Of a stretch of 64,000 nt of DNA, positions 1,667 to 62,276 are shown piece by piece. Both the position numbers and the translations under genes were made by a program. The notes below the pieces were generated by a model. The model saw nothing but the letters and a program-made list of their open reading frames with translations, did no database searches and was not told the origin of the DNA. This stretch comes from a virus: IMG/VR virus record IMGVR_UViG_3300006921_000012, positions 1 through 64,000 of that record; one strand, written 5' to 3'. Position 1 is the first letter of the stretch, and each line of letters begins with the position of its first letter.

Positions 1667-3034
1667 CTACTTGACTATAACTATATCTCCATTTTGCCAT
1701 TTTTCTTCTAGTGCTGGAGGAATCTCTGCTGGTGTATTTCTTATATTTAATACTTCGAGGTTTGGTAGGTTGGTTAAACTCTCTGGTAAACTCTTTAATT
1801 GTGGGTTATCCGGTATGGATAAGAATTTTAAATTTTGTAATTTCTCTATCTCTTTTGGTATGTTTTCTAATATCCCTTCAATATGTAGAACTTCTAGTTG
1901 GGGGAAATTGGTAAATAATTCTAGAGGTAGTGTCATTCCTGGTAACTTCTCTTTATTTCGAGTATCAAAATCGAATCTCTTTAACCCTGCTGGAAGTTTC
2001 TCTACAAATTCATCTAACCCATATAAAGCAATGAATCTAGATACTGTATCATTAGGATAATGGACTGCAACGCTTGTTCCTTCCTGGTCTGTTAGAGATT
2101 TTGCAAATTCATGTTTAAAATAATCTTTTAAGTCTTTACCATCACCACTTAAAAATTGTTCTAAACTAATACTCCTATCGTCTATATCCATAAATTGATT
2201 ACTAGGAAAATGAAACTGGTATCTTTTCTTTGGTAGGCCTGTTTGTTTGTGACCTTCTACATCCCTTCCTTGTGGTTGTGCAATTTCAGTGTCTGTTTTA
2301 TCCATAACAACATAAAGTGGTCCATCTTTAATATAACGGTCATAATATGTTAATCCAGGGCTAGAAGTACACCATCTCGTTTCTCTATTTTGACCCCCGT
2401 AATAGCATGCTGCTTCTTTACCCATAGGGTTATTGTGTATTTCTATTACTTGCCATTTAGGTCCGTCGTACCCCATTTTTGCTCCAGGATGAACCTCCAT
2501 TTGAGCTCTTTCTGCTTTACTAGTTGTTAATTCTTCTTTACTAATACTATAATCTTTTACTTGGTCATACAAATCGTCTATAGATTTAATTTGATTTATA
2601 TCTTTTTCTCCTTTATATCTTCCGGTTTTTTTAAGATAGTCAAATTTTAACAGGTCATCTGTTACTTTATATAAATCTTCCATGAATTGTCCTTGGTGTC
2701 TTTCTAAAGCCACTCCCCAATCTGGACTACCGTATGCATATTCTTCGTCTGCTTTTTGTTGTAATCCCATCCATTGTTTAATTAACCATTGAGTGTAGGC
2801 TCCTACTTTCTTAACATCTCTAGTATCTCTATCACCTTCAAACTCACCTTTAGTAGTCGGGTCTGCTTGCATAAGGTCCGTTAATATATCTAGTTCTATT
2901 TTAGGTTTTACTACTTTACCAGAAGCTTTCTTTTTGCCTGTAGCCCATTTATCCACTAGAACATCATAACGACTTTTGTCACTTTGTTCTAGGACTATTT
3001 CATATATTTCATTTAAAAGACTTGTAAAAGACAT
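1667..3034 (-). CDS. WCTS-motif protein with C-terminal leucine-rich repeats
   Basis: A 455-aa protein. Residues 1-180 are charged and helical. Around residue 220 there is a phage-typical block, GGQNRETRWCTSSPG, followed by YIKDGPLYVVMDKT and an aromatic segment ending MDIDDRSIS. The last 90 residues carry three to four leucine-rich repeats (for example FPQLEVLHIEGILENIPKEI, LQNLKFLSIP, LPNLEVLNIRN), which normally serve protein binding. The middle region is paralogous to the partial protein at the left window edge. Similar WCTS proteins occur in marine phages, but I know of no established role. The leader carries a TATTTAT motif 15 bases before the ATG. Confidence 0.75.
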   Translation of the reverse strand: MSFTSLLNEIYEIVLEQSDKSRYDVLVDKWATGKKKASGKVVKPKIELDILTDLMQADPTTKGEFEGDRDTRDVKKVGAYTQWLIKQWMGLQQKADEEYAYGSPDWGVALERHQGQFMEDLYKVTDDLLKFDYLKKTGRYKGEKDINQIKSIDDLYDQVKDYSISKEELTTSKAERAQMEVHPGAKMGYDGPKWQVIEIHNNPMGKEAACYYGGQNRETRWCTSSPGLTYYDRYIKDGPLYVVMDKTDTEIAQPQGRDVEGHKQTGLPKKRYQFHFPSNQFMDIDDRSISLEQFLSGDGKDLKDYFKHEFAKSLTDQEGTSVAVHYPNDTVSRFIALYGLDEFVEKLPAGLKRFDFDTRNKEKLPGMTLPLELFTNFPQLEVLHIEGILENIPKEIEKLQNLKFLSIPDNPQLKSLPESLTNLPNLEVLNIRNTPAEIPPALEEKWQNGDIVIVK

Positions 3035-3049
3035 ATTATACGTTTTACT

Positions 3050-3056
3050 ATAAATA
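3050..3056 (-). promoter_or_regulatory. TATTTAT leader motif of the LRR gene
   Basis: Coding-strand TATTTAT (plus-strand ATAAATA) lies 15 bases before the ATG at 3034 and is followed by AGTAAAAC. One of eight copies placed alike. Confidence 0.45.
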
Positions 3057-3087
3057 TTGGTTTAATCGATAAATTCTGAATAAAAGA

Positions 3088-4014: not shown

Positions 4015-4018
4015 AGTT

Positions 4019-4539: not shown

Positions 4540-4540
4540 A

Positions 4541-6995: not shown

Positions 6996-7014
6996 AAATT
7001 TATTTTTATTTATT

Positions 7015-7545: not shown

Positions 7546-7553
7546 AGTAATTA

Positions 7554-7700
7554 TTAAGAAAAAAAACTCAATATGTCAAAATAAAAATTCACTAAACCGT
7601 AAACAAAAAATACTATAACAAATATAAATCCTATTATCAGACGCCACTCAATTGTGACAGTCTCTTCTATATTCTTTTTTTTACATCCTTTACACCCCAT
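7554..7700 (-). CDS. Small CxxC membrane protein, 48 aa
   Basis: A short reading frame beginning [20 protein letters not shown], then one transmembrane helix (LIIGFIFVIVFFVYGLVNFY), ending FDILSFFS. The ATG overlaps the DnaJ TGA as TGATG, so it is probably translated by coupling to DnaJ. The N-terminal CxxC followed by lysines would face the cytoplasm and could bind metal or form a redox pair. It is too short for confident family assignment; a holin-like or chaperone-tethering role would be speculation. Confidence 0.6.
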   Translation of the reverse strand: MGCKGCKKKNIEETVTIEWRLIIGFIFVIVFFVYGLVNFYFDILSFFS

Positions 7701-8671
7701 CAGTTAGAAAAGTTTTCAGATTCCAATAATTCTTTTATTTTTTGTTTCTCTTCTTCGTTCAATCTTACTGGTAATTTTTGTTCTAAGTGGATATACATAT
7801 CACCTCTATTACCATCTCTTACAAATCCTTTCTTACTAGCTTTTAAAGCTTTAGACGTATTATAGAGTTCTGGTACCGCAATTTCTATCGGACCGTCAAA
7901 ATGAGGAACTTTAATTTTTTTACCTAAAAGTGCTTCTAAAGGAGAAATAGACATAATATGTATGTAATCTAAATCTCTTTTCTTTTGTTGGGGTGTCTCG
8001 ATTATATCCAAGATTAACATGAGGTCACCTGATTCTCCACCGAAACAACCATCTCCACCACCTCTTAATTTTAAGAAATGTCCAGCATTACATCCTTTAG
8101 GAATTTGGAACTTCACCGTTTTTTGTACAATATTTCCACCATTTAGATAACCTGTAGAGTGACATGCTGGACACTCAGTATTAACCAATTGTCTAAAGAA
8201 TGAATTTCCTCTCATTGATTGTACTATTCCTCGTCCCTGACATTGTGGACACATCTGAGTAGTACCTTCTCTTTTGGTATACTTCACTTCTTTCTTACTA
8301 CCATGATACACCTCCTCTAGTGTAAGACTAAGGTGGACCTTTAAATCATGACCTCTACCTCTTCTAGGTCTGTCATGATGGGGGTGTCTTCTTTGACCAC
8401 CCCCAAAAAATTGTTCGAATGCGTCAAATGGATTACCACCACCTCCTCCACCAAATAAGTCTTCTAAATTAATACCACCACCTGAATCATACTTAGCTTT
8501 TTTATCAGTATCACTTAACACACTATATGCTTCTGAAAGTTCTTTAAACTTCTCCTCCCCATCCGGATTCTTATCTGGATGGTACTTTAAAGAAAGTTTT
8601 CTATATGCTTTCTTAATCTCTTCTGGTGAAGAATCTTTACTTACACCAAGTATGTCGTAATAATTTGTCAT
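7700..8671 (-). CDS. dnaJ: DnaJ-type co-chaperone with reduced zinc region
   Basis: A 323-aa J-domain protein. The J domain spans residues 1-67 with HPD at 31-33. A Gly/Phe-rich linker follows (about 70-95), then a DnaJ C-terminal substrate-binding region. A canonical DnaJ has four CxxCxGxG repeats; here only two Cys pairs are seen, CPQCQGRG at 141-148 and CPACHSTG at 167-174, enough for one zinc site. It should stimulate host Hsp70 (DnaK) and may redirect folding to virion proteins. It is somewhat shorter than host DnaJ, as expected from the reduced zinc region. Its start is one base from the divergent gene on plus. Confidence 0.9.
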
Positions 8672-8672
8672 A

Positions 8673-10294: not shown

Positions 10295-10295
10295 T

Positions 10296-10472: not shown

Positions 10473-10473
10473 T

Positions 10474-11367: not shown

Positions 11368-12288
11368 TCAACTAGTAATTCTTTCTTCTTCACCATCCTC
11401 ACTAGCGTCATCATCCGAATTCCAACCCAAACTTACGTTAGGGTCTGTATCACCTTCTAAAGATTTAACGTTAGTTAAATCAGGACCTGGACCTAATTCT
11501 GCATCATTCATCACATCTAAATCCGCCTCATAATCAAAATCAGCTCCTGGATTATCACTTAATGCACTTACATCAATGTCTCCACCCAATCCAATATCAC
11601 CACCTAAGGAAATATCTCCAGATAGAGGAAGTTTTATTTCCAATTCGTCTAATTTGTTTTCACTTTCTGGAATAAAGTTTGGATTACGGTGATGTGCCCA
11701 ATCGTTAGGAATTGCGTCTCCAGCTGCACCTTGTAGGTCTTTATGTTTTTTCTTCATTGTTTTCTTGATTTTCTCACCTAACTTAGAAGGTACTACATTT
11801 GCAACTTGTTGTCCGTCTGAACCTTTACCATCATTATTACCTGTTTCTATTGACCCGTCCAAATATTGACTAAATCTTTTTTTGAATTCGTCACTAGGTT
11901 CTGTCTGATATTGTAGGTCCTCCATTCCTCCACCTCTCCATTCATCTACATACTCATCTTGTTTACTGTTATTCCTATACATTGGAGACTCGTAGTCTGT
12001 TTTGGAATTATTTTGGTGTGGAAATTCAGGATTACTATTATCTTTAATAGATAAATAATCTTTAATTTTCTTCATTATAGCGTCAACACCTGATTTGTTA
12101 TCTTTACCAGCTTGTTTTAAAACTTTATTAGTAACTGCAAGTCCTGGGATTTGCTTATTAGATACCGCTTCTTTTAGTCTATCTTTTAAATTTCCAATAG
12201 TCATCTCTCTTTTAATATCCTCACTAACTAATTTTTCCACACTATTTTGTAGTGTTGGTTCTGTATTTTTAGATTTTTGTTTTGCCAT
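11368..12288 (-). CDS. Acidic, low-complexity phage protein, 306 aa
   Basis: The N-terminal 90 residues are helical and basic (SVEKLVSEDIKREMTIGNLK, KVLKQAGKDNKSGVDAIMKK). A polar, disordered middle follows, then a block with GDISLGGDIGLGGDIDVS repeats and a strongly acidic end (DDDASEDGEEERITS). A scaffold-like or internal virion protein would fit the composition and the neighbouring genes, but no family is recognised. The frame continues past the TGA stop (see separate entry). A TATTTAT motif precedes the start by 15 bases. Confidence 0.65.
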   Translation of the reverse strand: MAKQKSKNTEPTLQNSVEKLVSEDIKREMTIGNLKDRLKEAVSNKQIPGLAVTNKVLKQAGKDNKSGVDAIMKKIKDYLSIKDNSNPEFPHQNNSKTDYESPMYRNNSKQDEYVDEWRGGGMEDLQYQTEPSDEFKKRFSQYLDGSIETGNNDGKGSDGQQVANVVPSKLGEKIKKTMKKKHKDLQGAAGDAIPNDWAHHRNPNFIPESENKLDELEIKLPLSGDISLGGDIGLGGDIDVSALSDNPGADFDYEADLDVMNDAELGPGPDLTNVKSLEGDTDPNVSLGWNSDDDASEDGEEERITS

Positions 12289-12303: not shown

Positions 12304-12310
12304 ATAAATA
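12304..12310 (-). promoter_or_regulatory. TATTTAT leader motif of the 306-aa acidic gene
   Basis: Coding-strand TATTTAT ends 15 bases before the ATG at 12288, followed by ATAAAAAAAG. Same spacing as at 3050 and 59901. Confidence 0.45.
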
Positions 12311-12318
12311 TATCGTTA

Positions 12319-13206
12319 TTACTCATATTTTGGTTTATTTCCGGACATACTAAACATTTTTCCTATTGGTAAATCCATCTTTGCAACACCTACAATCCCA
12401 GCTTTAGGGTCCGTCACAGGTGATTTATAAAAACTTCTGGTTATCATTTCTTCCAACTCTTCTTTTGTTACCCGTATTTTTTTATTCTTTTTTTCTGAGT
12501 TTCTTGCTCTTTCTTCTGCTGTATCTCTTAATTTTTTTCCTAAATTACTATCTTCCATAGCTTCCATAATAACCTTTGCTACATAAGATTTAGATTTACC
12601 TAACTTCTTAGAGACTCTTTCAATACTTTCAACTAATTTATCTTCTTCATAGAACTGTAAAGCGTTGATGTCCCCCTGATTACAATAAGGGAATTTTTTA
12701 CATTTATCTTTAACTTTTACATATGTAGCTCCTGGTCCACCATACTTAGGGAAATTTTTATCAGAGACTGCTCTCCAATTTTTATTATTTTTTGCCCAAA
12801 TTGCTGGTTGTGAGTATGCTCCTGAGGATGAAGCTCCTGTTTCTTCTCCTAATTCTTCTTCTTCAGATTCTAGTTCTTCTTCCTCTTCTGTCTCTACTAA
12901 ATGTTTTCTTAATGACTCCTTAATACTATATTCCAAATCGGAATTTTTTATTTTATCAATTTTATTTACCTTACCCTTACCTTCACTTTCCATTTTACCA
13001 AATAAAGGCCCACTATATGAACCAGATGAACTGGCTCCTGTTGCTTCTTCTACATCTATCTCTTCTTCATCTAATGCAGAATCTAAAACATTTTTTACCT
13101 TAAAGTAATTTTTTCCTCTTGCTTCTTTAGATAATGCATCGGATATACCGTCATCCATAGTCTTATCAAATCTTTTTTTCATATCACTACCTGTACTTAT
13201 TTCCAT
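12319..13206 (-). CDS. Probable virion protein with duplicated TGASSSG motif, 295 aa
   Basis: Two near-identical motifs, EEATGASSSGSYSGP at about 53-67 and GEETGASSSGAYSQP at about 120-134, each follow an acidic stretch. Similar 'ATGxxSSGxYSxP' motifs recur in structural-region proteins of marine phages. The remainder is a Cys-bearing centre (KCKKFPYCNQGDINALQFYE) and a C-terminal half rich in helices (SIERVSKKLGKSKSYVAKVI). A scaffold, internal head protein or maturation substrate are possibilities. The start overlaps the stop of the 85-aa gene by one base. Confidence 0.6.
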   Translation of the reverse strand: MEISTGSDMKKRFDKTMDDGISDALSKEARGKNYFKVKNVLDSALDEEEIDVEEATGASSSGSYSGPLFGKMESEGKGKVNKIDKIKNSDLEYSIKESLRKHLVETEEEEELESEEEELGEETGASSSGAYSQPAIWAKNNKNWRAVSDKNFPKYGGPGATYVKVKDKCKKFPYCNQGDINALQFYEEDKLVESIERVSKKLGKSKSYVAKVIMEAMEDSNLGKKLRDTAEERARNSEKKNKKIRVTKEELEEMITRSFYKSPVTDPKAGIVGVAKMDLPIGKMFSMSGNKPKYE

Positions 13207-13463
13207 TATCGAATATTTTTAATTTGTGAATCCCAGAAACTTCTTCTTAACCAAAATGTTCTATAAAGTTCGATAAGAACTTTGGTGCTTACATCTACCA
13301 CTTCAGCTTTATGAGCTTTATTTAATTTACTATTCTTCTTTTTTAATTCTGTATCCACCAAGTCAATAACAGTATTTTTAAATGTGGCTTTCTTAAGAAA
13401 GTCTTTAATTTCTGCTCTGGAAATTCGTTCGATTTCTAATTTATCACTTTTAGTTAATGCCAT
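13206..13463 (-). CDS. Conserved phage protein, 85 aa
   Basis: A small basic helical protein (ALTKSDKLEIERISRAEIKD, ending ELYRTFWLRRSFWDSQIKNI). The pattern 'TksDkxEIExLxRxEIKDFL...LYxxxWxRRxFW' is one I associate with conserved small proteins of structural regions in Bacteroidota phages. Its function is unknown. It starts the leftward unit with the 295-aa and 306-aa proteins and has the TATTTAT leader motif 16 bases before its ATG. Confidence 0.65.
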   Translation of the reverse strand: MALTKSDKLEIERISRAEIKDFLKKATFKNTVIDLVDTELKKKNSKLNKAHKAEVVDVSTKVLIELYRTFWLRRSFWDSQIKNIR

Positions 13464-13479: not shown

Positions 13480-13486
13480 ATAAATA
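13480..13486 (-). promoter_or_regulatory. TATTTAT leader motif of the 85-aa gene
   Basis: Coding-strand TATTTAT ends 16 bases before the ATG at 13463 and is followed by ATATAAAAC, resembling the copies with a three-base spacer before TAAA. Confidence 0.45.
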
Positions 13487-15830: not shown

Positions 15831-16428
15831 ATCCTATTCTTTCTATTAACTCTTCAAAATCAAAAGCTGGACTGATATCGGTCCAGAAATTATTATAGTT
15901 GCTTCTACTTACAACTCCTTTAAACTTATCTACACTCTCTATTTTCACATTGTGTCCAGTATATTCTAATTCCACACCTAATTCTCTATTTAAATGTACT
16001 ATTAACTCCGCACAAGACTCTAATTGTTCAGGAGTATAACTAGCCCAAAATAGATGTCCTCTCCATTTTTTTCTAAACACTTCTCCTTTATAAATATCAC
16101 CAATCCAGTTGACGTATGTATTTAGTGAAGGTTTTCTTTTTAACCAACCTAAATTTTCTAGAATAATAAAAATACTTTTAGTGTCCACCTCCTCTTTACC
16201 AAAAAATTCCGAAGTAGTGTGAGGTGGTATTATATCTACAACCCTCCCTTCTTTAGTTATCATATAATGAGGAATCTTAGTGTAATCTCCATCCATTCTA
16301 TATTTGAGACTTCTATAATAATTAGAAGCATCTCTTCCTGTATGACACAAAATAATCTGTGTTTTAGGTTTGTCTACCACAACATTATAAAACTTATTAC
16401 TATCTATTTGTTCGTCTGTCTCTATCAT
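15814..16428 (-). CDS. N-acetylmuramoyl-L-alanine amidase (endolysin)
   Basis: A 204-aa amidase_2 (T7 lysozyme-like) protein that would cut the amide bond between muramic acid and the stem peptide. The fold signature is visible: IILCHTGRD (zinc ligand H29), IPHYMITKEGRVVDIIPPH, NLGWL in the substrate strand, YTPEQLESCAELIVHLNREL, YTGHN (second ligand H159) and TDISPAFDF near the end, where the third ligand would be D184 rather than the Cys of T7. No signal peptide is present, so it needs a holin or other export. It overlaps the multi-pass membrane gene by four bases. Confidence 0.82.
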   Translation of the reverse strand: MIETDEQIDSNKFYNVVVDKPKTQIILCHTGRDASNYYRSLKYRMDGDYTKIPHYMITKEGRVVDIIPPHTTSEFFGKEEVDTKSIFIILENLGWLKRKPSLNTYVNWIGDIYKGEVFRKKWRGHLFWASYTPEQLESCAELIVHLNRELGVELEYTGHNVKIESVDKFKGVVSRSNYNNFWTDISPAFDFEELIERIGYEKNN

Positions 16429-17744
16429 TTTCTCTTTCTATATCTTAATACTTTCTTAAAAGGTACGTTCTCTTCTGGAGAATTTAAACCTTTCTCTTTA
16501 CCTAATTCCTCCAACCACTCATCCATTGCGTCATCTTCTTGGAAGGCTTCTATGACATCTTTAATCCTTTCTTGTTCATCTTTTTTAGGTTCTTCTTCTA
16601 CTACTAGTGTTTGTGTGGTGTCTGTCATTCTTTCTAAATCACCAAAGTAATCTTCCTCCTCTGTAGGTTGGTCTAGTGGATTTTTCCTACCTGTTAATTC
16701 TTTATAGTAAGGATTTATCTCACCTGTTTGAGGGTCGTAAATTGGTATTTCAAAAGGAGGATTTTCTGGTAGTGGTCTCTCTTCATCATAATGTAATCCA
16801 TCATTACCATTTTGACCTATGATATTCATTCGTTTTTCAGATTCTTCTTCTTTTAATCTTTTCTGGTTCTCTTCTACTCTCTTTTTTAATTCTTTACTTG
16901 GTTTTTCTTCTGTTATTAATATAACATTCTCTTCTTCTCGTTTGGGGTTGATTTGAGCAAATGCGAAGTTAGCTGCCACAACTAGTGCAATTGCCAATGG
17001 GTCAAAAACAAATATAATAAGTAATAAGAACCAATTAACCACTTGTCCCATGGGTTGTCCGGTAGTCTCTGACAAATATTTTAATGGACCTAGTTCTCTT
17101 TGTTCTTCATTACCTATTTCTAACTCTAGTAGTTCCCCATCAAGTCTCATTATAGAATCTTGCACCGCCTCTAGTTTTAAATTAATACCATTCCTATCAA
17201 TAATTGTGGTTTCTAATTCTTTTTGTAATGCTCGTCTAGTAGATGAGGAGGTAGTGGTAATTACCTGTTCTGCTTCTTTATCATAATAAGATACAGATGC
17301 AGGGTTTGATAATGATTTTCTTAAATCTGAGATGGTTTGATTTAATTGAGTCTTTTCAATATTCAAATCTTCTTTGTTTTCTTCAAATCTATTTTGTTTG
17401 GTTTGTAATACAAGTAATGATTTATCTAGGAATTCTGATTTGGTTGCTGTTTCCTGGTATGCTCCAGATAAGAATCCATATATACCACCTGAGGTTATTA
17501 CCATAAGAATGAAACATGCTATCATTAGATAACCTTTCAACCATTTATTTATGGTACCCCAGTATTGATATAGGAGGGACGCTACCACTAGTTTAGCAAA
17601 TTCTAAAGAACCTGCCATTATTATTACTTGAGTACTAGCTCCAGCGAATAGTTTACTAAGTCCGAATACCGAATAAAATGCTGCAGACCCTGAAACAGAT
17701 AACGCAGATAACGCTATTAAGAAAGGAAAAAATCTTTTTTTCAT
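16425..17744 (-). CDS. Multi-pass membrane protein with internal coiled coil, 439 aa
   Basis: Hydrophobic segments occur at about 5-30 (FLIALSALSVSGSAAFYSVF), 38-60, 70-92 (GYLMIACFILMVITSGGIYG) and 235-262 (WFLLLIIFVFDPLAIALVVA). The third and fourth are separated by a long coiled coil (QTKQNRFEENKEDLNIEKTQ and KELETTIIDRNGINLKLEAV). The tail is acidic and proline-rich. The AAFYSVFGLSKLFAGA start is one I recognise from conserved membrane proteins of marine phages and DUF4407-like proteins. Function unknown; proximity to the amidase makes envelope remodelling plausible. A TATTTAT leader motif lies 16 bases upstream of the start. Confidence 0.65.
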   Translation of the reverse strand: MKKRFFPFLIALSALSVSGSAAFYSVFGLSKLFAGASTQVIIMAGSLEFAKLVVASLLYQYWGTINKWLKGYLMIACFILMVITSGGIYGFLSGAYQETATKSEFLDKSLLVLQTKQNRFEENKEDLNIEKTQLNQTISDLRKSLSNPASVSYYDKEAEQVITTTSSSTRRALQKELETTIIDRNGINLKLEAVQDSIMRLDGELLELEIGNEEQRELGPLKYLSETTGQPMGQVVNWFLLLIIFVFDPLAIALVVAANFAFAQINPKREEENVILITEEKPSKELKKRVEENQKRLKEEESEKRMNIIGQNGNDGLHYDEERPLPENPPFEIPIYDPQTGEINPYYKELTGRKNPLDQPTEEEDYFGDLERMTDTTQTLVVEEEPKKDEQERIKDVIEAFQEDDAMDEWLEELGKEKGLNSPEENVPFKKVLRYRKRK

Positions 17745-17760: not shown

Positions 17761-17767
17761 ATAAATA
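17761..17767 (-). promoter_or_regulatory. TATTTAT leader motif of the 439-aa membrane gene
   Basis: Coding-strand TATTTAT ends 16 bases before the ATG at 17744, followed by TAATAAACG. It lies between the sigma gene and the membrane gene. Confidence 0.45.
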
Positions 17768-18568
17768 TTAACGACTCATATAGTCTAACAGCCCTTCACT
17801 CTCATTTCTTAATTTTCTTAAAGCTTTTTCTTTAATTTGTCTAACTCTTTCCTTTGTTAGACCAAAATCTTCCCCAATTTTAGCTAAAGTCTTTGGGTAT
17901 CCTACCAATCCAAAATACTCTTTTACAATAATAGCTTCTCTTTCATCTAAAACTGACATTGTTTCAATTAATTCTCTCTTTAATGCACCCATATCATAAA
18001 ATTGTGCATCTGGTGAATCAGCTTCTTCGTTTGGTATGAGTTCTAGTAATGTGTCTCCATCTTCATTAATTGGTTTACTTAAATTAAGTGTAGTTGGTAG
18101 GTTTTGTAACTTTTTACTTAATTTAACTTCGTCGTTTTTGGCCTCTTTTTTCGCTTTATGTAATTCCTGAATAACATTTGCTGGGAATCTAATAGTTCTT
18201 GCGTTATCATTTAAAGATTGGAGTATAGACTGTCTAATCCACCACACAGCGTAAGATATGAATCGGAAACCTCTTTCCCACTCAAAACTCTTAATTGCCT
18301 TTAATAAACCAAGATTTCCCTCAGCTATAAGGTCTGGTAAATCTAAACCTTGGTTTTGATAATCTTTTGCTACACTTATAACAAATCTAAGATTTCCTTC
18401 TAATAATTCTTTATGAATTGCTTTTAATTCACTTTCAGAAACATCTCCCGAGAGTATTTTATCAGCTAACTCTTTTTCTCGTTCTTTAGTAAGGACAGTG
18501 GATTTTCTAACGTCTTTTAAGTAGTGTTGTATTTCTTGTTGGTTGATGAAAATGTTATTTTTTGGCAT
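17768..18568 (-). CDS. Phage-encoded sigma-70 family factor (RpoD/RpoS-like)
   Basis: A 266-aa sigma factor without region 1.1. Region 1.2/2.1 is ...IQHYLKDVRKSTVLTKERE and NLRFVISVAKDYQNQGLDLP. Regions 2.2-2.4 are DLIAEGNLGLLKAIKSFEWE and FISYAVWWIRQSILQSLNDN. Region 3 follows, and region 4 ends KERVRQIKEKALRKLRNESE. It resembles the Bacteroidota primary sigma more than T4 gp55, which suggests descent from a host gene. It should direct RNA polymerase to phage promoters. It is transcribed together with the 178-aa gene from a host-type promoter upstream of that gene. Confidence 0.92.
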   Translation of the reverse strand: MPKNNIFINQQEIQHYLKDVRKSTVLTKEREKELADKILSGDVSESELKAIHKELLEGNLRFVISVAKDYQNQGLDLPDLIAEGNLGLLKAIKSFEWERGFRFISYAVWWIRQSILQSLNDNARTIRFPANVIQELHKAKKEAKNDEVKLSKKLQNLPTTLNLSKPINEDGDTLLELIPNEEADSPDAQFYDMGALKRELIETMSVLDEREAIIVKEYFGLVGYPKTLAKIGEDFGLTKERVRQIKEKALRKLRNESEGLLDYMSR

Positions 18569-18613
18569 ATTTTTTTATTTTAATATTATACAAATAGTGT
18601 TCCGTTGGTAACT

Positions 18614-18632
18614 ACATGACATTTTGTCATGT
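18614..18632. repeat. Perfect inverted repeat ACATGACA-TTT-TGTCATGT
   Basis: Eight-base arms flank a three-base loop, between the 178-aa gene and the sigma gene and covering the TGA stop of the former (18627-18629). On the minus strand it is not followed by a T run, so it is not a typical terminator in the direction of transcription. It could be an operator, an RNA hairpin that tunes sigma translation, or an attenuator. Confidence 0.55.
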
Positions 18633-19163
18633 TTTACTCTGATTTTTTAAAAATTTAAGTTCTGAATCTGTCAATGAGTCCATTCCTTTCTCACTAATCT
18701 TATCAAGGATGACATCAAGGTCTAATACAATGTGAGTGTTGGTCTTTATACGTAATTTAGGTTTATTTTGTTTCGCGTTTTTCCCAATTATATCTTTTAT
18801 ATCTTGTAAATCATCTAAATCGTCTACTAGTAATTTGTCTAAATCTAGATTAGTTTTTGCTAATAAATGATTCTCTAGTGATTCATCCATACGGGATGAA
18901 AATTTTGACGGTTTTGGCAATAAAATACAAACATCAATAATTTGGTCTAATTCTTCCATCACATATTCACTCATACTTTTAAATTCTTCTTCGCTTTGAA
19001 ATATGCAAATTAAGGATGTGTCGGAATGGATATATCTCATTGTACCAAAATCTGCAGTAACAGGACTTAGAACTTCTACAATCTCTTTTATTATATCATT
19101 TATATTGTCCCAATAACCCAAAGCGAATAACATATATTGTTTTTTCTTTCTATTTTTTGCCAT
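18627..19163 (-). CDS. Hypothetical protein upstream of the sigma factor, 178 aa
   Basis: A mixed alpha/beta protein with a basic start (AKNRKKKQYMLFALGYWDNI), a hydrophobic strand (TSLICIFQSEEEFKSMSEYV, IIDVCILLPKPSKF), an acidic middle (LLVDDLDDLQDIKDIIG) and the C-terminal LDKISEKGMDSLTDSELKFL. That ending resembles the short helical hairpin 'LDKIsxxGxdSLtxeExxfL' found in Bacteroidota proteins. It is the first gene after the host-type promoter at 19184-19215 and may be an early regulator co-expressed with the sigma. Function not established. Confidence 0.6.
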   Translation of the reverse strand: MAKNRKKKQYMLFALGYWDNINDIIKEIVEVLSPVTADFGTMRYIHSDTSLICIFQSEEEFKSMSEYVMEELDQIIDVCILLPKPSKFSSRMDESLENHLLAKTNLDLDKLLVDDLDDLQDIKDIIGKNAKQNKPKLRIKTNTHIVLDLDVILDKISEKGMDSLTDSELKFLKNQSKT

Positions 19164-19183: not shown

Positions 19184-19215
19184 CAAAGATACACATTTTT
19201 CTATTTACCACCAAA
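19184..19215 (-). promoter_or_regulatory. Bacteroidota-type promoter (TTTG, 20-base spacer, TATCTTTG)
   Basis: On the minus strand TTTG (19212-19215) is followed by exactly 20 bases and TATCTTTG (19184-19191), which matches the Bacteroidota -33 TTTG / -7 TAnnTTTG consensus and spacing. Transcription would start near 19177 and reach the ATG at 19163 after a very short leader, reading the 178-aa gene and then the sigma factor. Confidence 0.65.
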
Positions 19216-19261: not shown

Positions 19262-19268
19262 TATTTAT
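19262..19268 (+). promoter_or_regulatory. TATTTAT leader motif of the 159-aa plus-strand gene
   Basis: TATTTAT lies 15 bases before the ATG at 19284 and is followed by TAATAAAC. It is the only plus-strand copy in this set and it keeps the coding-strand orientation and spacing of the minus-strand copies. Confidence 0.5.
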
Positions 19269-19283: not shown

Positions 19284-19763
19284 ATGCCAAGTAATGAATT
19301 TATTAAAAGAATAATAAAAGAGGAATCCAAATCTATAACGGAACAACGTTTAGACGACCCTAACTCTTTTACTACCATAGTCGAGGATGTTACATTTACC
19401 GGATTAAAAGAATATTTTCCAGAGTATAAAGATAGAGATATGGATATAGGCTATCTAAACTGTAGTGTGAATTGGAGATATGAATTAGAATTAAGAAGTT
19501 GGGGTATTAAAGATATTAGTATTTACACCACTAGTGTAGTAATTAATGCTTCTATAGAAATTTTTGATGAGGATTATACCAGAATTGAAGAAGAAAAAGA
19601 AATAGAGATACTTGTAGATGATATGGGTGGTTTTGGTGGTGAAAAAGAAGGTACTTGGTATTATGAAGATATGCAAGAAGACGATATGAGGAATAATAGT
19701 ATTTTTCCTGTAGAGTTAGAAGTAGATTTGTCTGACCAATCAGTAGCGGTCATTTGGAATTAA
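19284..19763 (+). CDS. Hypothetical acidic protein, 159 aa
   Basis: A plus-strand gene divergent from the sigma operon. It starts MPSNEFIKRIIKEESKSITE, a start typical of structural-region proteins of large phages, and continues as a beta-rich acidic domain (DIGYLNCSVNWRYELELRSW, YTTSVVINASIEIFDEDYTR, VELEVDLSDQSVAVIW). No catalytic motif or membrane segment is present. Its stop overlaps that of the convergent SbcC-like gene (shared TTAA). Function unknown. Confidence 0.6.
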   Translation: MPSNEFIKRIIKEESKSITEQRLDDPNSFTTIVEDVTFTGLKEYFPEYKDRDMDIGYLNCSVNWRYELELRSWGIKDISIYTTSVVINASIEIFDEDYTRIEEEKEIEILVDDMGGFGGEKEGTWYYEDMQEDDMRNNSIFPVELEVDLSDQSVAVIWN

Positions 19764-27649: not shown

Positions 27650-29340
27650 GTGTTCAATATTATTTGTCTATAAATACTTTCCCCACTAGTTGTAACTGCG
27701 TGAGTAGGGTTAGAAGTGTAATGTCCTCCCATGGACTTATATCCAGCTCCGTATATTTGAACAGCTGGGGAATTAAATACCAACCATCTACCCGCACTTG
27801 TCGGTGTAGCTGCTTGCCAAGTGAATGTCGGTTGTAACGCAGGTATACTCAATATAAATGATAAAGTAACCTTACATGACTTATATTTCTTGGACGTATC
27901 TTGTGGGGTGATACGTAAACTAATGTTAAATGAATATACAGCATCTTTACCTGTTCCACTTGTCGTTACCCAATTAGAGACTTCAGGGTCTTTACTTAAA
28001 GCGTAAAAGAAGTCTTCTGTTTGTTGTACAATTCTCGCTAATCCTATATTTGGTTCTTGTGTAAGGTTTCTTCTATTCATTCTTAGAGTCTGTGGTAAAT
28101 TACCACTAGTCTGGTTAGTTAACTCTAATTCCGGTGTTCCCGCAAAAAAGTTTAGTGCTGTTTCTGTGGAAGTAGTAGAATTCCTAATACCAGTACTACC
28201 TAAATAATCACTATTTTCCTTTCCTCTAAATCTCTTATCTCCTGGTTCATTATTAATTTGATTAGTTTGTAGTGGATAATAGTAATTAGTGGAGGTGTTA
28301 TTGTTATCTACAATTCTTGCTGAAGGACTTAATGTTTCTAATCCTGTTGCATTTAATATAGTACTATAACTACTATTTTCAATAATCTGTGGGTGATAAT
28401 AACCACCAGCGTCTTCTCTTATCCCATACTCTGGATATACTTGAGTTTTCTTATTGATGATGTTACCTACAACATAACCATAGTCCGCTAAAGCATTACA
28501 AATGGATAAAGGTCCTGAACCGTTAAACACTCCTTGGTCATTACTAAGACCTTCAGTAGCTACAGTAAATGGTGATATATAAGCTCTAGTTTTTCTAGTT
28601 CCAATTTTTGCTGTTTTATCAACATTATTCGTTACAGTCTCGTTATTTGGATTTACTAACGCTGCACTAGTTAACTTTCTTAATAAGTGACCATCTTTCG
28701 GTGATTCTGGTTCAATTTTAACACTACAGTTCTTTATGTTTCCACCTTCAGACACATAAAAACCATCTACTAAATTTGCAAACCATCCTCTACCAAGACC
28801 ATATTCCATATCTTCAAATAGTTGGGTGTATCTCGCACTATAGTTTCTTCCTTGAGCGTCTTGTATGGTACCAAAATAATTAGTAAAAGTGGTTGCTGTC
28901 ATACCATTCCATTGGTGGTATGGTATTTGTGTCATTGCTAATGCCTTTAATGATGTAAACATATCCGCAACGTAGAATTTAACAGTAGCGTCGGTTGAGT
29001 AGTCCATCTTAGCACTTGCCGATGTACTACGGAATCCAGCGACTAAAGAACCTACTGGTGTTAAAGACGGTAACACGGTTGCTTGACCTAGTGTATATTC
29101 TAACTTTCTTTTTATGTCATATCCTCCATTAACACCAAATATACAATTTAAATGTTCTCCAGTTACATCCGGAACTTCTCCGGAAGATAATTGTAAGGCG
29201 TTACGGTAATCTACATCCGTATCTCCCAATGCAAACTTTACCATATTATCCGCGAGACTTCCTTGTAAGAGAAGCTTTCTACCCGCAGCTGTCATATGTA
29301 AATCTAAATATAATGTTGTTGCTTTAGTTATGTATCCCAT
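27646..29340 (-). CDS. Tail appendage protein with LTxxGR N-terminal module, 564 aa
   Basis: The N terminus reads LDLHMTAAGRKLLLQGSLAD followed by VKFALGDTDVDYRN. The same module, 'LTxxGRkxLxxGxL...FxLGDxDxDY', begins the 801-aa protein and, in divergent form, the 1119-aa protein. The remainder is beta-rich with many Asn/Thr/Ser turns (GIRNSTTSTETALNFFAGTP). The C-terminal part (YKSCKVTLSFILSIPALQPT) is beta-sandwich-like. It probably attaches to the baseplate through the N-terminal module. Confidence 0.7.
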   Translation of the reverse strand: MGYITKATTLYLDLHMTAAGRKLLLQGSLADNMVKFALGDTDVDYRNALQLSSGEVPDVTGEHLNCIFGVNGGYDIKRKLEYTLGQATVLPSLTPVGSLVAGFRSTSASAKMDYSTDATVKFYVADMFTSLKALAMTQIPYHQWNGMTATTFTNYFGTIQDAQGRNYSARYTQLFEDMEYGLGRGWFANLVDGFYVSEGGNIKNCSVKIEPESPKDGHLLRKLTSAALVNPNNETVTNNVDKTAKIGTRKTRAYISPFTVATEGLSNDQGVFNGSGPLSICNALADYGYVVGNIINKKTQVYPEYGIREDAGGYYHPQIIENSSYSTILNATGLETLSPSARIVDNNNTSTNYYYPLQTNQINNEPGDKRFRGKENSDYLGSTGIRNSTTSTETALNFFAGTPELELTNQTSGNLPQTLRMNRRNLTQEPNIGLARIVQQTEDFFYALSKDPEVSNWVTTSGTGKDAVYSFNISLRITPQDTSKKYKSCKVTLSFILSIPALQPTFTWQAATPTSAGRWLVFNSPAVQIYGAGYKSMGGHYTSNPTHAVTTSGESIYRQIILNT

Positions 29341-35194: not shown

Positions 35195-35201
35195 ATAAAT
35201 A
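35195..35201 (-). promoter_or_regulatory. TATTTAT leader motif of the 801-aa tail gene
   Basis: Coding-strand TATTTAT ends 22 bases before the ATG at 35172, followed by ATATAAATTAAAA. It is the outlier in spacing within the set. Confidence 0.4.
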
Positions 35202-53635: not shown

Positions 53636-53638
53636 ATT

Positions 53639-56369: not shown

Positions 56370-56372
56370 ACT

Positions 56373-59300
56373 CTAATCTAGTGGTGGCATATAACCATTA
56401 ACAAATTTATCATAAGCATTATTTCCTTGATATAAACCAAAATAATAATGATAGTATCCCATAGATACTTTATCGGTAGACGGTATGAGGGACGGGATAG
56501 GTCCCGTTGGGGGTACTATTATGGGTCCTGGTTGTGATGGATTACTTACAATACTAATACCACTGTTATTTGCTGCCTCCCAATTATTATCTCTATTTCC
56601 AAAATTTACACCCGCTCCTTTTTTCCATGGATAATATGGAATTGTTTGAGCACGACTATACCCAGTACTCCCACCCATTAATCTATTTCTTAAATCCATA
56701 CTATCTATTTTCATTTCTTTCTGTGCATACGTATTATCGATAGCTGGGTCAAGAATTGTTGGTGGTAGTGGACCGTAGTTGGGGTCTGTTGGGTAGTAAA
56801 AAGGACTTTGGTATTTGTGTATAGACATTTCATTATTAAAAGCGACTGCTTGTGCGATGTCACCATCTAATAACCTATATTGTCCCCCTGCAAGACCTGC
56901 ACTACTAGCTTTGAGTTCACGTTTATTCCTATCAGACGCACCTCCTGAAGCTGGGAACCCAAATGTTTGCCATGCCCTACTACCACCAAACCAGTTATTA
57001 ACTCCAGCAAATTGTATTTCACCCCAATTATAACCCATTAATTTTTGATTAATAAAATAATCTAAAATTCCTGCTGGTGATTGTGCGGAAGATGATTGTA
57101 GTTGGTCTATGAAAAAATCGGTAGCTAGTTCACTATCACAATCTACACAGGAATTATTGGTACTTAAATCTTCAAAGGTACCCAATTCTATTACTGTTGT
57201 GGGATAATTAATACCTTTATAGAACATTCTATATTGGATGGTTGCTGTCCCTCCATTTTCTGGTTTTTCATATGAGAAAGAACCTCCCGCACTCGGGTTG
57301 TTTGCTTGAAATATTCCTGTAGTAGGATTATAAGGAGCACTTCTGTAATAATATTCGTTTGGGTTGGTGAAACCATCATCAGGACCTACAATAATATCTC
57401 TACAAAAATAATCAGTGGTAGTTTCTGTTAGGGTACTTGGGTCTGTACTTTTTATTTTTTTATTGTCAAACCTAAAATGGTAAAGGGTACCTCTAATCCA
57501 AGATGCCCAGAATCCCATATTAAAGATACCTTGACATAAACCATTATATATGTTTTTTCTTACTCTCCATTCATTAAGACCAAAGAATATAACACCCAAT
57601 CTATTCAACATAAAAGTTGCAATCAATATAACAAAACCATCTATAATAAGACCAATAAGAACAGGGCTTAAGGCAGCCCCCGCTCCAGGTATCCATGCAA
57701 ATACAGCTCCAATTGTTATCATTGTCCATATAGCTACTGTAAATGTAGCTTCTAATCCAGACCCATCATAACTAATGGTATAACATCCCGCCATACTGGT
57801 TTTATCTTCTCCATCATCTATATCTTCACCATGTTCTTCACTATAATATAATTTATTACTAGCTCTTAATGCTGGAATTTGACAATTAGGGTCGTCTACT
57901 AATGGACTACCCGATTCTTGTTGTATTTCTCCTGCTCCCCAAAGACCCGGAAAATCCATATCAAAAAATGAACCACAATTACAATCTTCACACTCATCAT
58001 ATTTGGTTAGGGGTAATCTATACTTCATAGAAGTCACCCCAGCCTGTAATAATCTAACCATAGTTATCGCAATAGCTACTTGTATTAAAGCAAAAGCAAA
58101 TGCCCCCACCGCAGATAAAATTGCACCAATAGGAAGTAGAGCACCTAAACCAAGTACTATATTTAAGATTTGGGTCATAGCGATAGCTAAAGCATTAACA
58201 GCTGATGCCACATGGAGGAGTAGACTATATGTTTCAAAAAGAACCATTAACGCTAAGAGGATATATGGAACAAATATGGATAAGACTGTTAAGAATAAAG
58301 TTAACTGTGTTATAACAAAAATAAACGACCCTCCTCTAAAACCATCGTTGGCAGGAAATTCTCTTATACTTCCACTACAATCTACTTCTTTGGCGGGATT
58401 AGTACTTTTTATCCCTACAAAATCCCATCTATTTCTTTTAGCCCCATATCCACTATGCATTACCCCTCTACCTGGGATGTCAGAATTGGTTGCGTCTGCA
58501 TCAAAAGGTGTTTGACTATAATCATTCCTATAAATGTCTATAAACTGACCTAGACTATATACTCTGTCTGGTAACATTTCATAAAAATAGTCTTCTCCTA
58601 AAAATGCTGGTGAACTTAAATAGTTGTTACATTTTATACTTGGACTAGAACCCATATCGTGTGGATAATCTAATAATTCAGTAGAAAATTGATAACTGTC
58701 TATAAATTGGTCCGTATACTCTCTAATATTTGGTACTAGATATTTTCCTTTACGGGTTCCCGCACCTGTTTCACTATCAAAACTAAGTCTAAACCTATAT
58801 TTACCTCTAGTCGGTACTCCTACAGAAGGGTCAGAAGATATTTGTTGATTTCCAAATTCATCGGTATAGATGTAATCTAAGTTCATAGGGACTTTAGCTA
58901 CAAAAGACCCCGTACCATCTAAATTGTGTAAATTTATTTTTTCTAATTTAGGTCTACAAGAACAACCTGGTTTTTCATCATTTTCTTGAAATACTGTAAA
59001 TCTAATCGCTTCTATTTTACCACTCCCTGTAGTTAATTTACATACATCACCTTGATTTCTACTTGGTCCACACTGCCATCCAACACTCCCACTATTATCA
59101 TCGGTAATAATACTCCCCATAAATAACGCGTTAGGTCTAAATTCGACATTGGAGTCTCTTAGGTCAAAATCAACTCTAGAAATACCAGAATTACACATCT
59201 CATCATCTCCCCAGAAGGAAACTGATTCTACTGTTTTATTTTGAATTACTATTTGTGGTAAAGTATCTAAGTTTTCTGATTCATTAAATACAGCAGAGTT

Positions 59301-59885
59301 TTTAAATTTTTCTATTGGTACCCCTTGGGATACAAAGTCAAATGGTTTCATTGAGTAACATCCAATGTCACTTACGTCCACAGACATGTGTATTTGATGG
59401 ATACCCAACGGTACCCCCCAAACCATGTAGTCTCCATTTTCATTAGTTTTTACAGTAAATTTATAATATTTCTCAAATACTTCTAATTTAAGAGGATTGG
59501 ATATAGTTTCCTCCGCTGTTAAGAAACTTCCTGTTGGAGTGTGTCGGTTATGTTGTTTAGTGGTAGGTAAAAGATTATATCTATATCCTTCTTCATTTTT
59601 ATCTGTAACATCCTTAAAAGGATACAGTGCGGTTATCGCATCATCTTGTTCATCTTCTGCGGTTAAAGGAATAAAAATGGAAAGTTTTGCATTAGGGACA
59701 CCCAAACCACTATTTGCTACTACTCTACCTACAATTACACCGTAGTCTGCACACATTCTTGCATACACCTCTGACTGAGTCAATTTTAGACTCAAAATTT
59801 CTAAAAGGTCAAAGTCTTGTTGTAAGTTTACTTTTACAAACCTATCTTCACCTACTTTTGTTCTTATTCTATATGATTTGGGCAT
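56373..59885 (-). CDS. Virion protein with long hydrophobic tracts, 1170 aa
   Basis: Residues about 40-180 resemble a carboxypeptidase-regulatory-like beta sandwich (GRVVANSGLGVPNAKLSIFI and DYMVWGVPLGIHQIHMSVDV). Two hydrophobic tracts follow: about 518-612 (FIFVITQLTLFLTVLSIFVP, GALLPIGAILSAVGAFAFAL) and about 713-770 (FTVAIWTMITIGAVFAWIPG, SPVLIGLIIDGFVILIATFM). Between them lies a Cys cluster, DECEDCNCGS. Multi-spanning hydrophobic segments are unusual in a tail protein and would suit a membrane-penetrating or channel-forming tip component. A TATTTAT motif precedes the start by 15 bases. Confidence 0.68.
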   Translation of the reverse strand: MPKSYRIRTKVGEDRFVKVNLQQDFDLLEILSLKLTQSEVYARMCADYGVIVGRVVANSGLGVPNAKLSIFIPLTAEDEQDDAITALYPFKDVTDKNEEGYRYNLLPTTKQHNRHTPTGSFLTAEETISNPLKLEVFEKYYKFTVKTNENGDYMVWGVPLGIHQIHMSVDVSDIGCYSMKPFDFVSQGVPIEKFKNSAVFNESENLDTLPQIVIQNKTVESVSFWGDDEMCNSGISRVDFDLRDSNVEFRPNALFMGSIITDDNSGSVGWQCGPSRNQGDVCKLTTGSGKIEAIRFTVFQENDEKPGCSCRPKLEKINLHNLDGTGSFVAKVPMNLDYIYTDEFGNQQISSDPSVGVPTRGKYRFRLSFDSETGAGTRKGKYLVPNIREYTDQFIDSYQFSTELLDYPHDMGSSPSIKCNNYLSSPAFLGEDYFYEMLPDRVYSLGQFIDIYRNDYSQTPFDADATNSDIPGRGVMHSGYGAKRNRWDFVGIKSTNPAKEVDCSGSIREFPANDGFRGGSFIFVITQLTLFLTVLSIFVPYILLALMVLFETYSLLLHVASAVNALAIAMTQILNIVLGLGALLPIGAILSAVGAFAFALIQVAIAITMVRLLQAGVTSMKYRLPLTKYDECEDCNCGSFFDMDFPGLWGAGEIQQESGSPLVDDPNCQIPALRASNKLYYSEEHGEDIDDGEDKTSMAGCYTISYDGSGLEATFTVAIWTMITIGAVFAWIPGAGAALSPVLIGLIIDGFVILIATFMLNRLGVIFFGLNEWRVRKNIYNGLCQGIFNMGFWASWIRGTLYHFRFDNKKIKSTDPSTLTETTTDYFCRDIIVGPDDGFTNPNEYYYRSAPYNPTTGIFQANNPSAGGSFSYEKPENGGTATIQYRMFYKGINYPTTVIELGTFEDLSTNNSCVDCDSELATDFFIDQLQSSSAQSPAGILDYFINQKLMGYNWGEIQFAGVNNWFGGSRAWQTFGFPASGGASDRNKRELKASSAGLAGGQYRLLDGDIAQAVAFNNEMSIHKYQSPFYYPTDPNYGPLPPTILDPAIDNTYAQKEMKIDSMDLRNRLMGGSTGYSRAQTIPYYPWKKGAGVNFGNRDNNWEAANNSGISIVSNPSQPGPIIVPPTGPIPSLIPSTDKVSMGYYHYYFGLYQGNNAYDKFVNGYMPPLD

Positions 59886-59900
59886 ACATTACTTTAACAG

Positions 59901-59907
59901 ATAAATA
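59901..59907 (-). promoter_or_regulatory. TATTTAT leader motif of the 1170-aa virion gene
   Basis: Coding-strand TATTTAT ends 15 bases before the ATG at 59885, followed by CTGTTAAAG. It marks one of the few gaps inside the tail block. Confidence 0.45.
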
Positions 59908-59958
59908 TTTGTTCTGTCAAAATTAAAAGTAATATACACTACCTATTTGTAAATCTAA

Positions 59959-61797
59959 TTATGTGATGGATGGTTGGGATAGGGTTTTAATCCTTACTGC
60001 TATATCCTTATTTGGTAATTTCACTTGAAATATCTGATTTGGTTGTGCGAATAGGGTACCATCTATCAAAGCTATTTCTTTGGTTGAAGCGTTTTTATAA
60101 GGTTGTGAAACGGTATTTTCAGAGTAATCACCTCCCACTTTATTAAAGAGTCGAAGGTCTACTAAGTTTATTACCCCTGGTTGGTTTACGATATCTTTTG
60201 TTAGTTCCCCAGTAAAGACATCTTTCCCCATTTCTTTATTGTCGGGACTGAAAAAGGTTGTAGTTTTATCTATAATGTTAGTTACTATGTCTGCTTGATT
60301 GAATCCAGGGTCGATTATTAAATCCATTTCTAGTGATAAGTCTATAACTTCAGCGGATGTTACACTTATATAATCATTTAACATTCTATAGTCCGATAGA
60401 TACTCCGCGATATTTTTCATCATCGTAGTACTTACCTTAGACGTTAATGAACCATCTTCAGAATAAGATAAAAGATTAATAAAAATCTTATTTTCCACTT
60501 CCATAACCCCTACTTTTGCTGGAGACCCAAAAACACTTGGCATAGTCTGTATTCTAGAAACATAATCATTTATGGTTACAGCTCTTTGTTGTGCGGAAAA
60601 ATTAAATGAAATATAATTTCTTATTTCTTCTACACTCGGTTGATTGGCTCCTCCAATTGCGGAAGTTACATTATTCACGGTTAAGGAATCTCTTACAGCA
60701 GAATTAATACTACTTATTGGACCATTAATAGCAAAATCTATACTGGCTACCGTATTAACACTATTAGGTCCTACATTCGTTCCTTTACCACCACCAACAC
60801 GATACTGAATAAAAATAGTAGTGTTAGACTGTGGTGCTCTCCCTAATGATAAATTATTCATATATTGGTTAAGGTCTAACTTATAACCTGTGGAAGTTAA
60901 ATCATCAAGTGAGTCTTCTGCAGAACTACTTCCCCCACCTAAAGTTAGAAAAAAGAAACCTTCTGGGGTGTATTCCGTAATAAATCTCTGGTCTGTGTTT
61001 TGCCACTTTCCTATCTTAATACCTGGTTTATCTGATTTTTTACTACTATCTTCTATAAAAACTTTATCCTGTACCAATGCTTCTACCTCATACCATTTAT
61101 TTGTCGCATTAATAAAGTCGGTATTTTTAGGTAAAGCTTGGATACTTGTACCATCTTTTTGCATTACCGCTGTAACTCCTAATACATTTTTTTCTGGTAA
61201 GAAAACTTTAAGAAATGGTTTAACGTCTGTACTAGTTATTACTTTTTTAAACACTTTAGTAACTCCATTAACTACGACCTCTCTCTTAGTTATTGTATAA
61301 TTTATTACATTTCCGTTTGAGTCGAAGTTAGGGGTCTTAGTTCGATTAGGAAAACCTTTACTATCATATGCACTTGCGAAGTCTACATCATTTACTAACT
61401 CAAAAACTTCACCACCTCCTTTAAATTGTGAATTTCTTCTTAATAACCCCAGATACCTAGTATTCTCTTTATCTCCCATAACTGGAACCGTAACCGATAA
61501 ATCTACAACTGCCACTGAAGGACGATTACCAGGTATTTTTAAACCATAAGTTCTTGCTATATTGAAGAGGGAAGAACGTTGTTGTGCATATTCCAACACT
61601 GTTTCCTGTAAACTTCTATCTATGTGATAGTTAAGATTATCTCCGATTGCCGCATTTAAATCTAATAGAACTGAAAATATAGAAGCGTCATTTGCGTTTT
61701 GGATTAATTCTGGATATTGTTCTTTAACATATTTTAACAAGTCGGTCCTTAGTCCAACAAAATCTCTTTCTGTATATGATATTTTATTATTTGCCAC
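59959..61797 (-). CDS. Baseplate wedge protein, T4 gp6-like (baseplate J family)
   Basis: A 612-aa protein beginning NNKISYTERDFVGLRTDLLK YV, then PELIQNANDASIFSVLLDLN and GDNLNYHIDRSLQETVLEYA, the characteristic gp6/baseplate J N terminus. The middle contains RDSLTVNNVTSAIGGANQPS and ISFNFSAQQRAVTINDYVSR, and the C terminus GVINLVDLRLFNKVGGDYSE. It should form the inner baseplate wedge ring with gp25-like and other proteins. The start is GTG at 61797, overlapping the gp25-like TAG (TAGTG), so the two are translationally coupled. Confidence 0.88.
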   Translation of the reverse strand: MANNKISYTERDFVGLRTDLLKYVKEQYPELIQNANDASIFSVLLDLNAAIGDNLNYHIDRSLQETVLEYAQQRSSLFNIARTYGLKIPGNRPSVAVVDLSVTVPVMGDKENTRYLGLLRRNSQFKGGGEVFELVNDVDFASAYDSKGFPNRTKTPNFDSNGNVINYTITKREVVVNGVTKVFKKVITSTDVKPFLKVFLPEKNVLGVTAVMQKDGTSIQALPKNTDFINATNKWYEVEALVQDKVFIEDSSKKSDKPGIKIGKWQNTDQRFITEYTPEGFFFLTLGGGSSSAEDSLDDLTSTGYKLDLNQYMNNLSLGRAPQSNTTIFIQYRVGGGKGTNVGPNSVNTVASIDFAINGPISSINSAVRDSLTVNNVTSAIGGANQPSVEEIRNYISFNFSAQQRAVTINDYVSRIQTMPSVFGSPAKVGVMEVENKIFINLLSYSEDGSLTSKVSTTMMKNIAEYLSDYRMLNDYISVTSAEVIDLSLEMDLIIDPGFNQADIVTNIIDKTTTFFSPDNKEMGKDVFTGELTKDIVNQPGVINLVDLRLFNKVGGDYSENTVSQPYKNASTKEIALIDGTLFAQPNQIFQVKLPNKDIAVRIKTLSQPSIT

Positions 61798-62255
61798 TAT
61801 AAATTAATTATTACGAAATCTTTAGTTTCAAAAGCACTACTAGTGGTAGTAAAATCTACCCTCACTTTAGCTGTGTACTCTTCTGCAGCGGCTCCCGATA
61901 CCCGATAAACTCTATCATCGTTAGTGGTAACCAGTGTCCCTTCGGTTTCTTCCGCTTCTTTCATTGGTGTTATTATTATATTATCTATCCTTAAATTAGG
62001 AATATATTTATCTACTTGTTCTCTTATTTCAGCCTCGATAGAATCAAACGTTGGGGTGTCCATCGGTTCAAATATATATTCATAAAGACGTGTACCAAAA
62101 TCTGGGAGGAAATACCTCATTCCTTTCCTAGTTAAAAGTAGATGGATTAAATCAGCTTTAATTTCATCCTCTGGGGTCTCTGTCAAATCGAACATGTACC
62201 CTAGTCTACTCTTATTTAAAGGAAAATTTATCCCGTATGTTCCAAATTCTGGCAT
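61797..62255 (-). CDS. Baseplate wedge protein, T4 gp25-like (GPW/gp25 family)
   Basis: A 152-aa protein with the gp25 layout: GTYGINFPLNKSRLGYMFDL, EDEIKADLIHLLLTRKGMRY and FLPDFGTRLYEYIFEPMDTP, then DSIEAEIREQVDKYIPNLRI. In T4-type phages it joins the wedge to the tail sheath start. Size and motif order are normal for the family, with a slightly long C-terminal strand region. It precedes the gp6-like gene and carries a TATTTAT motif 14 bases before the ATG, which makes it a candidate first gene of the tail unit. Confidence 0.9.
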   Translation of the reverse strand: MPEFGTYGINFPLNKSRLGYMFDLTETPEDEIKADLIHLLLTRKGMRYFLPDFGTRLYEYIFEPMDTPTFDSIEAEIREQVDKYIPNLRIDNIIITPMKEAEETEGTLVTTNDDRVYRVSGAAAEEYTAKVRVDFTTTSSAFETKDFVIINL

Positions 62256-62269
62256 TATAAGTTTTTTAT

Positions 62270-62276
62270 ATAAATA
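62270..62276 (-). promoter_or_regulatory. TATTTAT leader motif of the gp25-like gene
   Basis: Coding-strand TATTTAT ends 14 bases before the ATG at 62255, followed by ATAAAAAAC. It lies at the head of the gp25/gp6 pair. Confidence 0.45.

Follow-up and report, generated by a model that had tools for sequence, protein, structure and literature searches.

The 64 kb stretch of DNA analyzed here (the window), which makes up most of the 65,645-base IMG/VR virus record IMGVR_UViG_3300006921_000012, contains the heptamer TATTTAT at a nearly fixed, short distance upstream of the start codons of eight genes. We consider it highly probable that this box is the core of a late promoter that consists solely of a -10 element and is most likely read by a gp55-type sigma factor together with the host RNA polymerase. 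The motif, its placement and conservation, the lack of a -35 element, the association with structural genes and the co-occurrence with gp55-like proteins are all observed. The window encodes a T4-type myovirus, with gp6-like and gp25-like baseplate wedge proteins, SbcC/SbcD, a primase and a ribonucleotide reductase, and also carries, on the minus strand, a gene for an RpoD/SigA-like sigma factor with regions 1.2, 2 and 4 (17768..18568).

All eight sites reported in the first-pass annotation are found in the coding-strand orientation, including the plus-strand case at 19262, and TAAA follows within the next 2-4 bases in every one of them. As described there, seven of the boxes end 14-16 nt before the ATG and one ends at 22 nt (Table 1). 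The argument that AT-richness is a poor explanation for such fixed placement also holds: when the 55 leaders of the record were shuffled 3000 times with dinucleotide content preserved, boxes at 14-16 nt numbered 0.09 on average and 2 at most, against the seven observed, and only A-rich heptamers (AAAATAA) located just before the start rival this placement in the same test. Bare TATTTAT is not rare in this record, which has an AT content of 66% and contains 36 copies; it is the position of the boxes and their longer form, ATATTTATnnnTAAA, that stand out. A weight matrix built from 111 sites in related phages, excluding both the window and G001, its near twin, puts seven of the eight sites at ranks 1-7 among all positions of the record on both strands. 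Unguided expectation-maximization motif discovery did not converge on the motif in the window record alone (24 leaders) or in G010.

Table 1 Putative promoter elements in the window (matrix rank: rank with the weight matrix trained on relatives)
Element	Position	Strand	Location	Basis
TATTTAT box	3050..3056	-	15 nt 5' of gene 1667-3034 (leucine-rich repeat protein)	matrix rank 2
TATTTAT box	12304..12310	-	15 nt 5' of gene 11368-12288	matrix rank 1
TATTTAT box	13480..13486	-	16 nt 5' of gene 13206-13463	matrix rank 4
TATTTAT box	17761..17767	-	16 nt 5' of gene 16425-17744 (signal-peptide-like start)	matrix rank 7
TATTTAT box	19262..19268	+	15 nt 5' of divergent gene 19284-19763	matrix rank 6, orthologue comparison
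TATTTAT box	35195..35201	-	22 nt 5' of gene 32767-35172	matrix rank 3
TATTTAT box	59901..59907	-	15 nt 5' of gene 56373-59885 (1170 aa, upstream of baseplate genes)	matrix rank ~31 (weak)
TATTTAT box	62270..62276	-	14 nt 5' of gp25-like baseplate wedge gene 61797-62255	matrix rank 5
Candidate ninth box	27670..27676	-	20 nt 5' of gene 27221-27649, within upstream gene	matrix rank 8
Host-type (Bacteroidota sigma-A) promoter TTTG-N20-TATCTTTG	19184..19215	-	20 nt 5' of gene 18627-19163	consensus in PMC6847099
Conserved element CGGAACACTATTTGTA	18589..18604	-	5' of RpoD-like sigma gene	same place in G001-G008

The relatives comprise 12 records that encode the RpoD-like sigma (49-95% identical) and were read almost whole, and 80 loci around gp55-like genes. 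In most of these, coding-strand TATTTAT peaks near the ATG, whereas its reverse complement shows no such peak; TATTTAT reversed is identical to itself and is useless as a control, so the reverse complement and shuffles served instead. Among the 610 leaders of the clade with a gap of at least 15 nt that remained after removal of redundant ones, the distance between the box and the ATG is bimodal: 50 sites lie at 4-6 nt, where 2.6 are expected, and 100 lie at 13-18 nt, where 4.8 are expected, with a trough of 6 sites at 7-10 nt (3.1 expected). At the starts of genes with a gap below 5 nt (444 leaders), the box is essentially absent, with a single case at 13-18 nt.

In G004, unguided motif discovery recovered TATTTATAATAAAA, and the core of this motif was returned for G003, G006 and G011/12 as well. 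The core is A-TATTTAT-A followed by an A-rich stretch, in which the best conserved bases are the AAA at nt 5-7 past the box; in the 4-6 nt class, this position is occupied by the ATG itself. In the 119 aligned sites, sequence information does not peak anywhere 5' of the box, as it would at a -35 element, and the T4-type box, TATAAATA, is not enriched in the leaders of these phages. A structured element was considered as well and rejected, DNA folding of three leaders having yielded no hairpin.

Orthologous genes keep the box while the flanking sequence diverges. The box at 12304 is retained in 8 relatives with protein identity down to 31% (spacers of 12-18 nt), the one at 62270 in 12 relatives (spacers of 6 and 11-15 nt), and the one at 17761, which adjoins the 3' end of the RpoD-like sigma gene, has spacers of 13-17 nt in 7 relatives. 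The box at 3050 is kept upstream of the G004 orthologue (50% identity, spacer 19), the orthologues of the gene behind the box at 35195 have spacers of 14-22 nt, and the box at 59901, despite its weak matrix score, is preserved 15-17 nt before the orthologues in G001-G004. In the case of gene 13206-13463, the box lies 15-18 nt before the orthologues in G000, G001, G003 and G010 (16 nt in the window) but 5 nt before those in G004-G007; such a switch of register comes naturally to a promoter but would be strange in a translation signal. The genes behind the box include those for gp25, the tail sheath, the head-tail adaptor and the terminase large subunit.

Under the proposed mechanism, the A-TATTTAT-A box would function without a -35 partner as the core of a phage late promoter, and transcription would start 5-7 nt past the box, at the AAA of TAAA. 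A single start site at this position is the simplest reading because the conserved AAA and the ATG of the 4-6 nt class share it. In one register, the start codon would coincide with the transcription start and the mRNA would be leaderless; in the other, the start codon would lie about 9-11 nt past the transcription start, leaving a short A-rich leader that would suffice in hosts that do not use Shine-Dalgarno sequences, and the trough at 7-10 nt would mean that leaders of 1-5 nt are avoided. The box would be read by the host RNA polymerase with a phage gp55-type late sigma, on the same principle as late transcription in T4, and early genes would be served by host-type -33/-7 promoters.

Host-type promoters are indeed present separately in these phages. 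Bacteroidota sigma-A promoters (TTTG/TAnnTTTG; PMC6847099, PMC9723704) serve their early-type genes, including gene 18627-19163 of the window, and share with the box the TA at its upstream edge and the possibility of short or no leaders. However, the box lacks both the TTTG and a -33 element and, in the cultured Flavobacterium phage immuto discussed below, precedes structural rather than early genes. In F. johnsoniae, where the start site is known, the host-type -7 element ends at -5 (PMC6847099). The host-type TAHHTTTG occurs repeatedly 4 nt before the ATG in several of these phage genomes, so leaderless genes appear to be normal in this group, independently of TATTTAT. The orthologues of gene 18627-19163 (DUF6576) swap promoter types, with a host-type promoter in G000-G002 and a TATTTAT box in the leaderless register in G004-G008.

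The likely reader of the box is a gp55-type sigma, which is absent from the 65.6-kb fragment that contains the window but present in five larger relatives. A protein of this type was found first in the 210-kb relative G004, through a match to PHROG_234; the gp55-like family has at least 389 loci in IMG/VR, and a member is encoded in all five large records tested (G004, G013, G014, G015 and G018) as well as in immuto. The 'late sigma' profile PHROG_234 matches 24 of 27 members of the family, weakly (E ~5e-4 to 8e-4). For a predicted structural model (pLDDT, the predicted local distance difference test score, of 73.6), the leading PDB matches in Foldseek are sigma factors, none better than E 0.03; Pfam holds no gp55 model, and searching PDB sequences with the gp55-like profile produced no match. 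The RNA polymerase beta domain (PF00562) has no match in these phages, so the core polymerase is likely that of the host; a search for the single-subunit RNA polymerase (PF00940) also gave no match but is uninformative, the controls having been silent too. The nearest named gp55-like matches, Mel-JY01 and LR756508, show neither positioned TATTTAT nor TATAAATA in the parts read, and both of them, like RM378, are missed by PHROG_234.

Close to the N-terminus, all gp55-like proteins (L074, immuto gp118, RM378p020) keep a conserved dipeptide, YF (KQYFG / NYFD / YYFT / KYFR). This is possibly a clamp- or polymerase-binding motif; in T4 gp55, the clamp motif is instead C-terminal.

The first-pass annotation had suggested that the motif may be the core of a phage promoter, with leaders that are very short and with the encoded sigma factor as its reader. 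The promoter and the short leaders are well supported, whereas the RpoD-like sigma of the window is probably not the reader. The possibility that this sigma, rather than the gp55-like one, reads the box is a minor one, even though the RpoD-like sigma is encoded in the window and in 13 of the 13 records of the first set, and, among 12 tested records that carry a gp55-like gene, 4 have an orthologue, the three largest being among these. The protein has a region 4, yet a -35 partner of the box is missing. In addition, region 2 of this sigma (FISYAVWW) resembles that of the Bacteroidota sigma-A type, which reads TAnnTTTG. Because G004, G013, G014, G015 and G018 encode both sigmas, co-occurrence in the large uncultured records cannot decide which is the reader; immuto does.

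Phage immuto, the host of which is Flavobacterium sp. LMO8, carries the TATTTAT box at 11-24 nt in 21 of 88 leaders (1.1 expected) and encodes a distant homologue of the gp55-like family of this lineage (gp118, 78174-78872; hhalign 97.9%, E 3e-13; detected only with the profile of the clade itself). A profile search of the complete genome finds no RpoD-like sigma in immuto, which also differs from the phages described here in having almost no 4-6 nt class. With structural and early regions assigned from the record annotation and gene order, the box precedes 17 of 34 structural-region leaders versus 1 of 23 in the small open reading frame (ORF) module at 60-78 kb (Fisher P 3e-4), and the early-type element TAHHTTTAG shows the opposite distribution, with 2 of 34 and 17 of 23, respectively (Fisher P 9e-8). 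At 67.6-74.1 kb of the same genome (NC_055915), about a dozen small early-type ORFs share a near-identical leader, GTTGCC-N~19-TATATTTAGGTATCAATAATTAAAACA, which makes up an early promoter of host-like type that recurs together with a long stretch of conserved leader.

A related element, TATTTAAA, is located 6-11 nt before the ATG in 18 of 80 leaders of the cultured Rhodothermus phage RM378 (0.3 expected). The RM378p020 protein matches the gp55-like family weakly, with filters off but not with default filters; it may be a gp55-like protein, and TATTTAAA may belong to the same system. In the form TATTTAAAnAAAA, the element stands 5-11 nt before the ATG in the same number of leaders of this genome (NC_004735), for which another sigma, with regions 2 and 4, is annotated at 128329-128928.

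The other proposal of the first-pass annotation, a translation signal of Bacteroidota phages, fared worse. An AT-rich enhancer of initiation upstream of the ATG would fit the fixed distance between the box and the ATG, the enrichment of A-rich heptamers directly before the ATG, and the preference of hosts without Shine-Dalgarno sequences for A at defined upstream positions (PMC6847099). Such a signal nevertheless is quite improbable: the box is missing from intra-operon starts, occurs in two registers separated by a trough, the closer of which would fall outside a leaderless mRNA, and in immuto marks structural genes, with another element used in the early module. Moreover, positioned TATTTAT is not seen at a fixed spacing in the crAss-like Bacteroidota phages phi14:2 and crAss001. 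Chance in an AT-rich genome replete with TATTTAT, combined with common ancestry of the leaders, is scarcely credible and is refuted for the set of sites as a whole by the dinucleotide shuffles, the reverse-strand control, the removal of redundancy and conservation against diverged flanks, although the single sites at 59901 and 27670 could still be due to chance.

Several observations weigh against the late promoter read by a gp55-type sigma. The start site, the time class and the reading sigma are all points that we infer. The fragment that contains the window encodes no recognizable gp55, the presence of which in this phage we infer from the relatives, and the case for homology between the family and T4 gp55 is weak, a direct hhalign comparison with the single T4 sequence giving a probability of 3%. 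A search with PHROG_223 for the gp45 clamp of T4 gave no match; divergent clamps would escape this search. Finally, a few of the genes behind the box are non-structural, such as that for a DnaB-like helicase in G004.

In the T4 late promoter, a box of 8 bp precedes the start by one helical turn; there is no -35 element, and the downstream sequence is AT-rich (PMC2988020). The system described here has in common with it a single AT-rich box of 7-8 bp at the -10 position relative to the predicted start, the missing -35 element, the AT-rich downstream sequence, the structural genes served, a gp55-type sigma in the phage group and, likely, the host core polymerase. The boxes differ: TATTTATA here and TATAAATA in T4 are exact reverse complements, which could be a coincidence in AT-rich sequence. 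The putative leaders differ as well, with 0 or about 9-11 nt here, whereas the same pipeline applied to T4 as a control recovers TATAAATA 24-28 nt before the ATG, a distance that leaves room for the Shine-Dalgarno sequence not used by Bacteroidota hosts. The gp55-like protein, of about 232 aa, has an extra C-terminal region, and its similarity to T4 gp55 is remote. By analogy, the TATTTAT element would work like a T4 late promoter without being one by the sequence criterion. The late promoters of the phiKZ/AR9 type (PMC5312081) are likewise short motifs in giant phages but are read by a phage multisubunit RNA polymerase, of which the beta domain was not found here. The literature searched, with subscription papers and preprints outside its scope, contains no description of the TATTTAT motif.

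Some further features of these genomes are of note. An element YGGWACACTWWTTGTA, conserved in nine records, lies 20-28 nt upstream of the RpoD-like sigma gene, at 18589-18604 in the window. It is spaced like the -24/-12 promoters of sigma-54 (TGGCAC-N5-TTGCW) but has a T in place of the C at -12. Flavobacterium psychrophilum possesses sigma-54 (PMC9723704). The contig RFNS01000300.1, from a metagenome-assembled genome labeled 'Alphaproteobacteria', encodes a sigma that shares 57% identity with the one from the phage and is probably a mis-binned phage contig. On the minus strand, the window also encodes a pyridoxal phosphate-dependent enzyme (PF00291; 6093-6995) and a DnaJ-like chaperone (7700-8671).

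It is conceivable, if somewhat short of probable, that these phages represent a T4-type Bacteroidota lineage in which a divergent gp55-type sigma reads the T4 late octamer flipped, as TATTTATA, and many late genes are expressed from leaderless mRNAs, so that one box sets both the transcription start and the start codon. If so, the TATTTAAA element of RM378 would make the flipped octamer an old trait among T4-type phages across Bacteroidota and Rhodothermota. With these findings, a consensus for the late promoter and a candidate for the late sigma become available for a large, mostly uncultured and very common group of phages, and a cultured phage, immuto, exists in which both can be tested. 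They would extend T4-style -10-only late transcription to hosts with a TAnnTTTG polymerase and ribosomes that do not rely on Shine-Dalgarno sequences. Late operons, their start codons and orientations would become annotatable in metagenomic contigs, and the two gp55 families with different boxes would form a natural pair for the study of DNA recognition by gp55.

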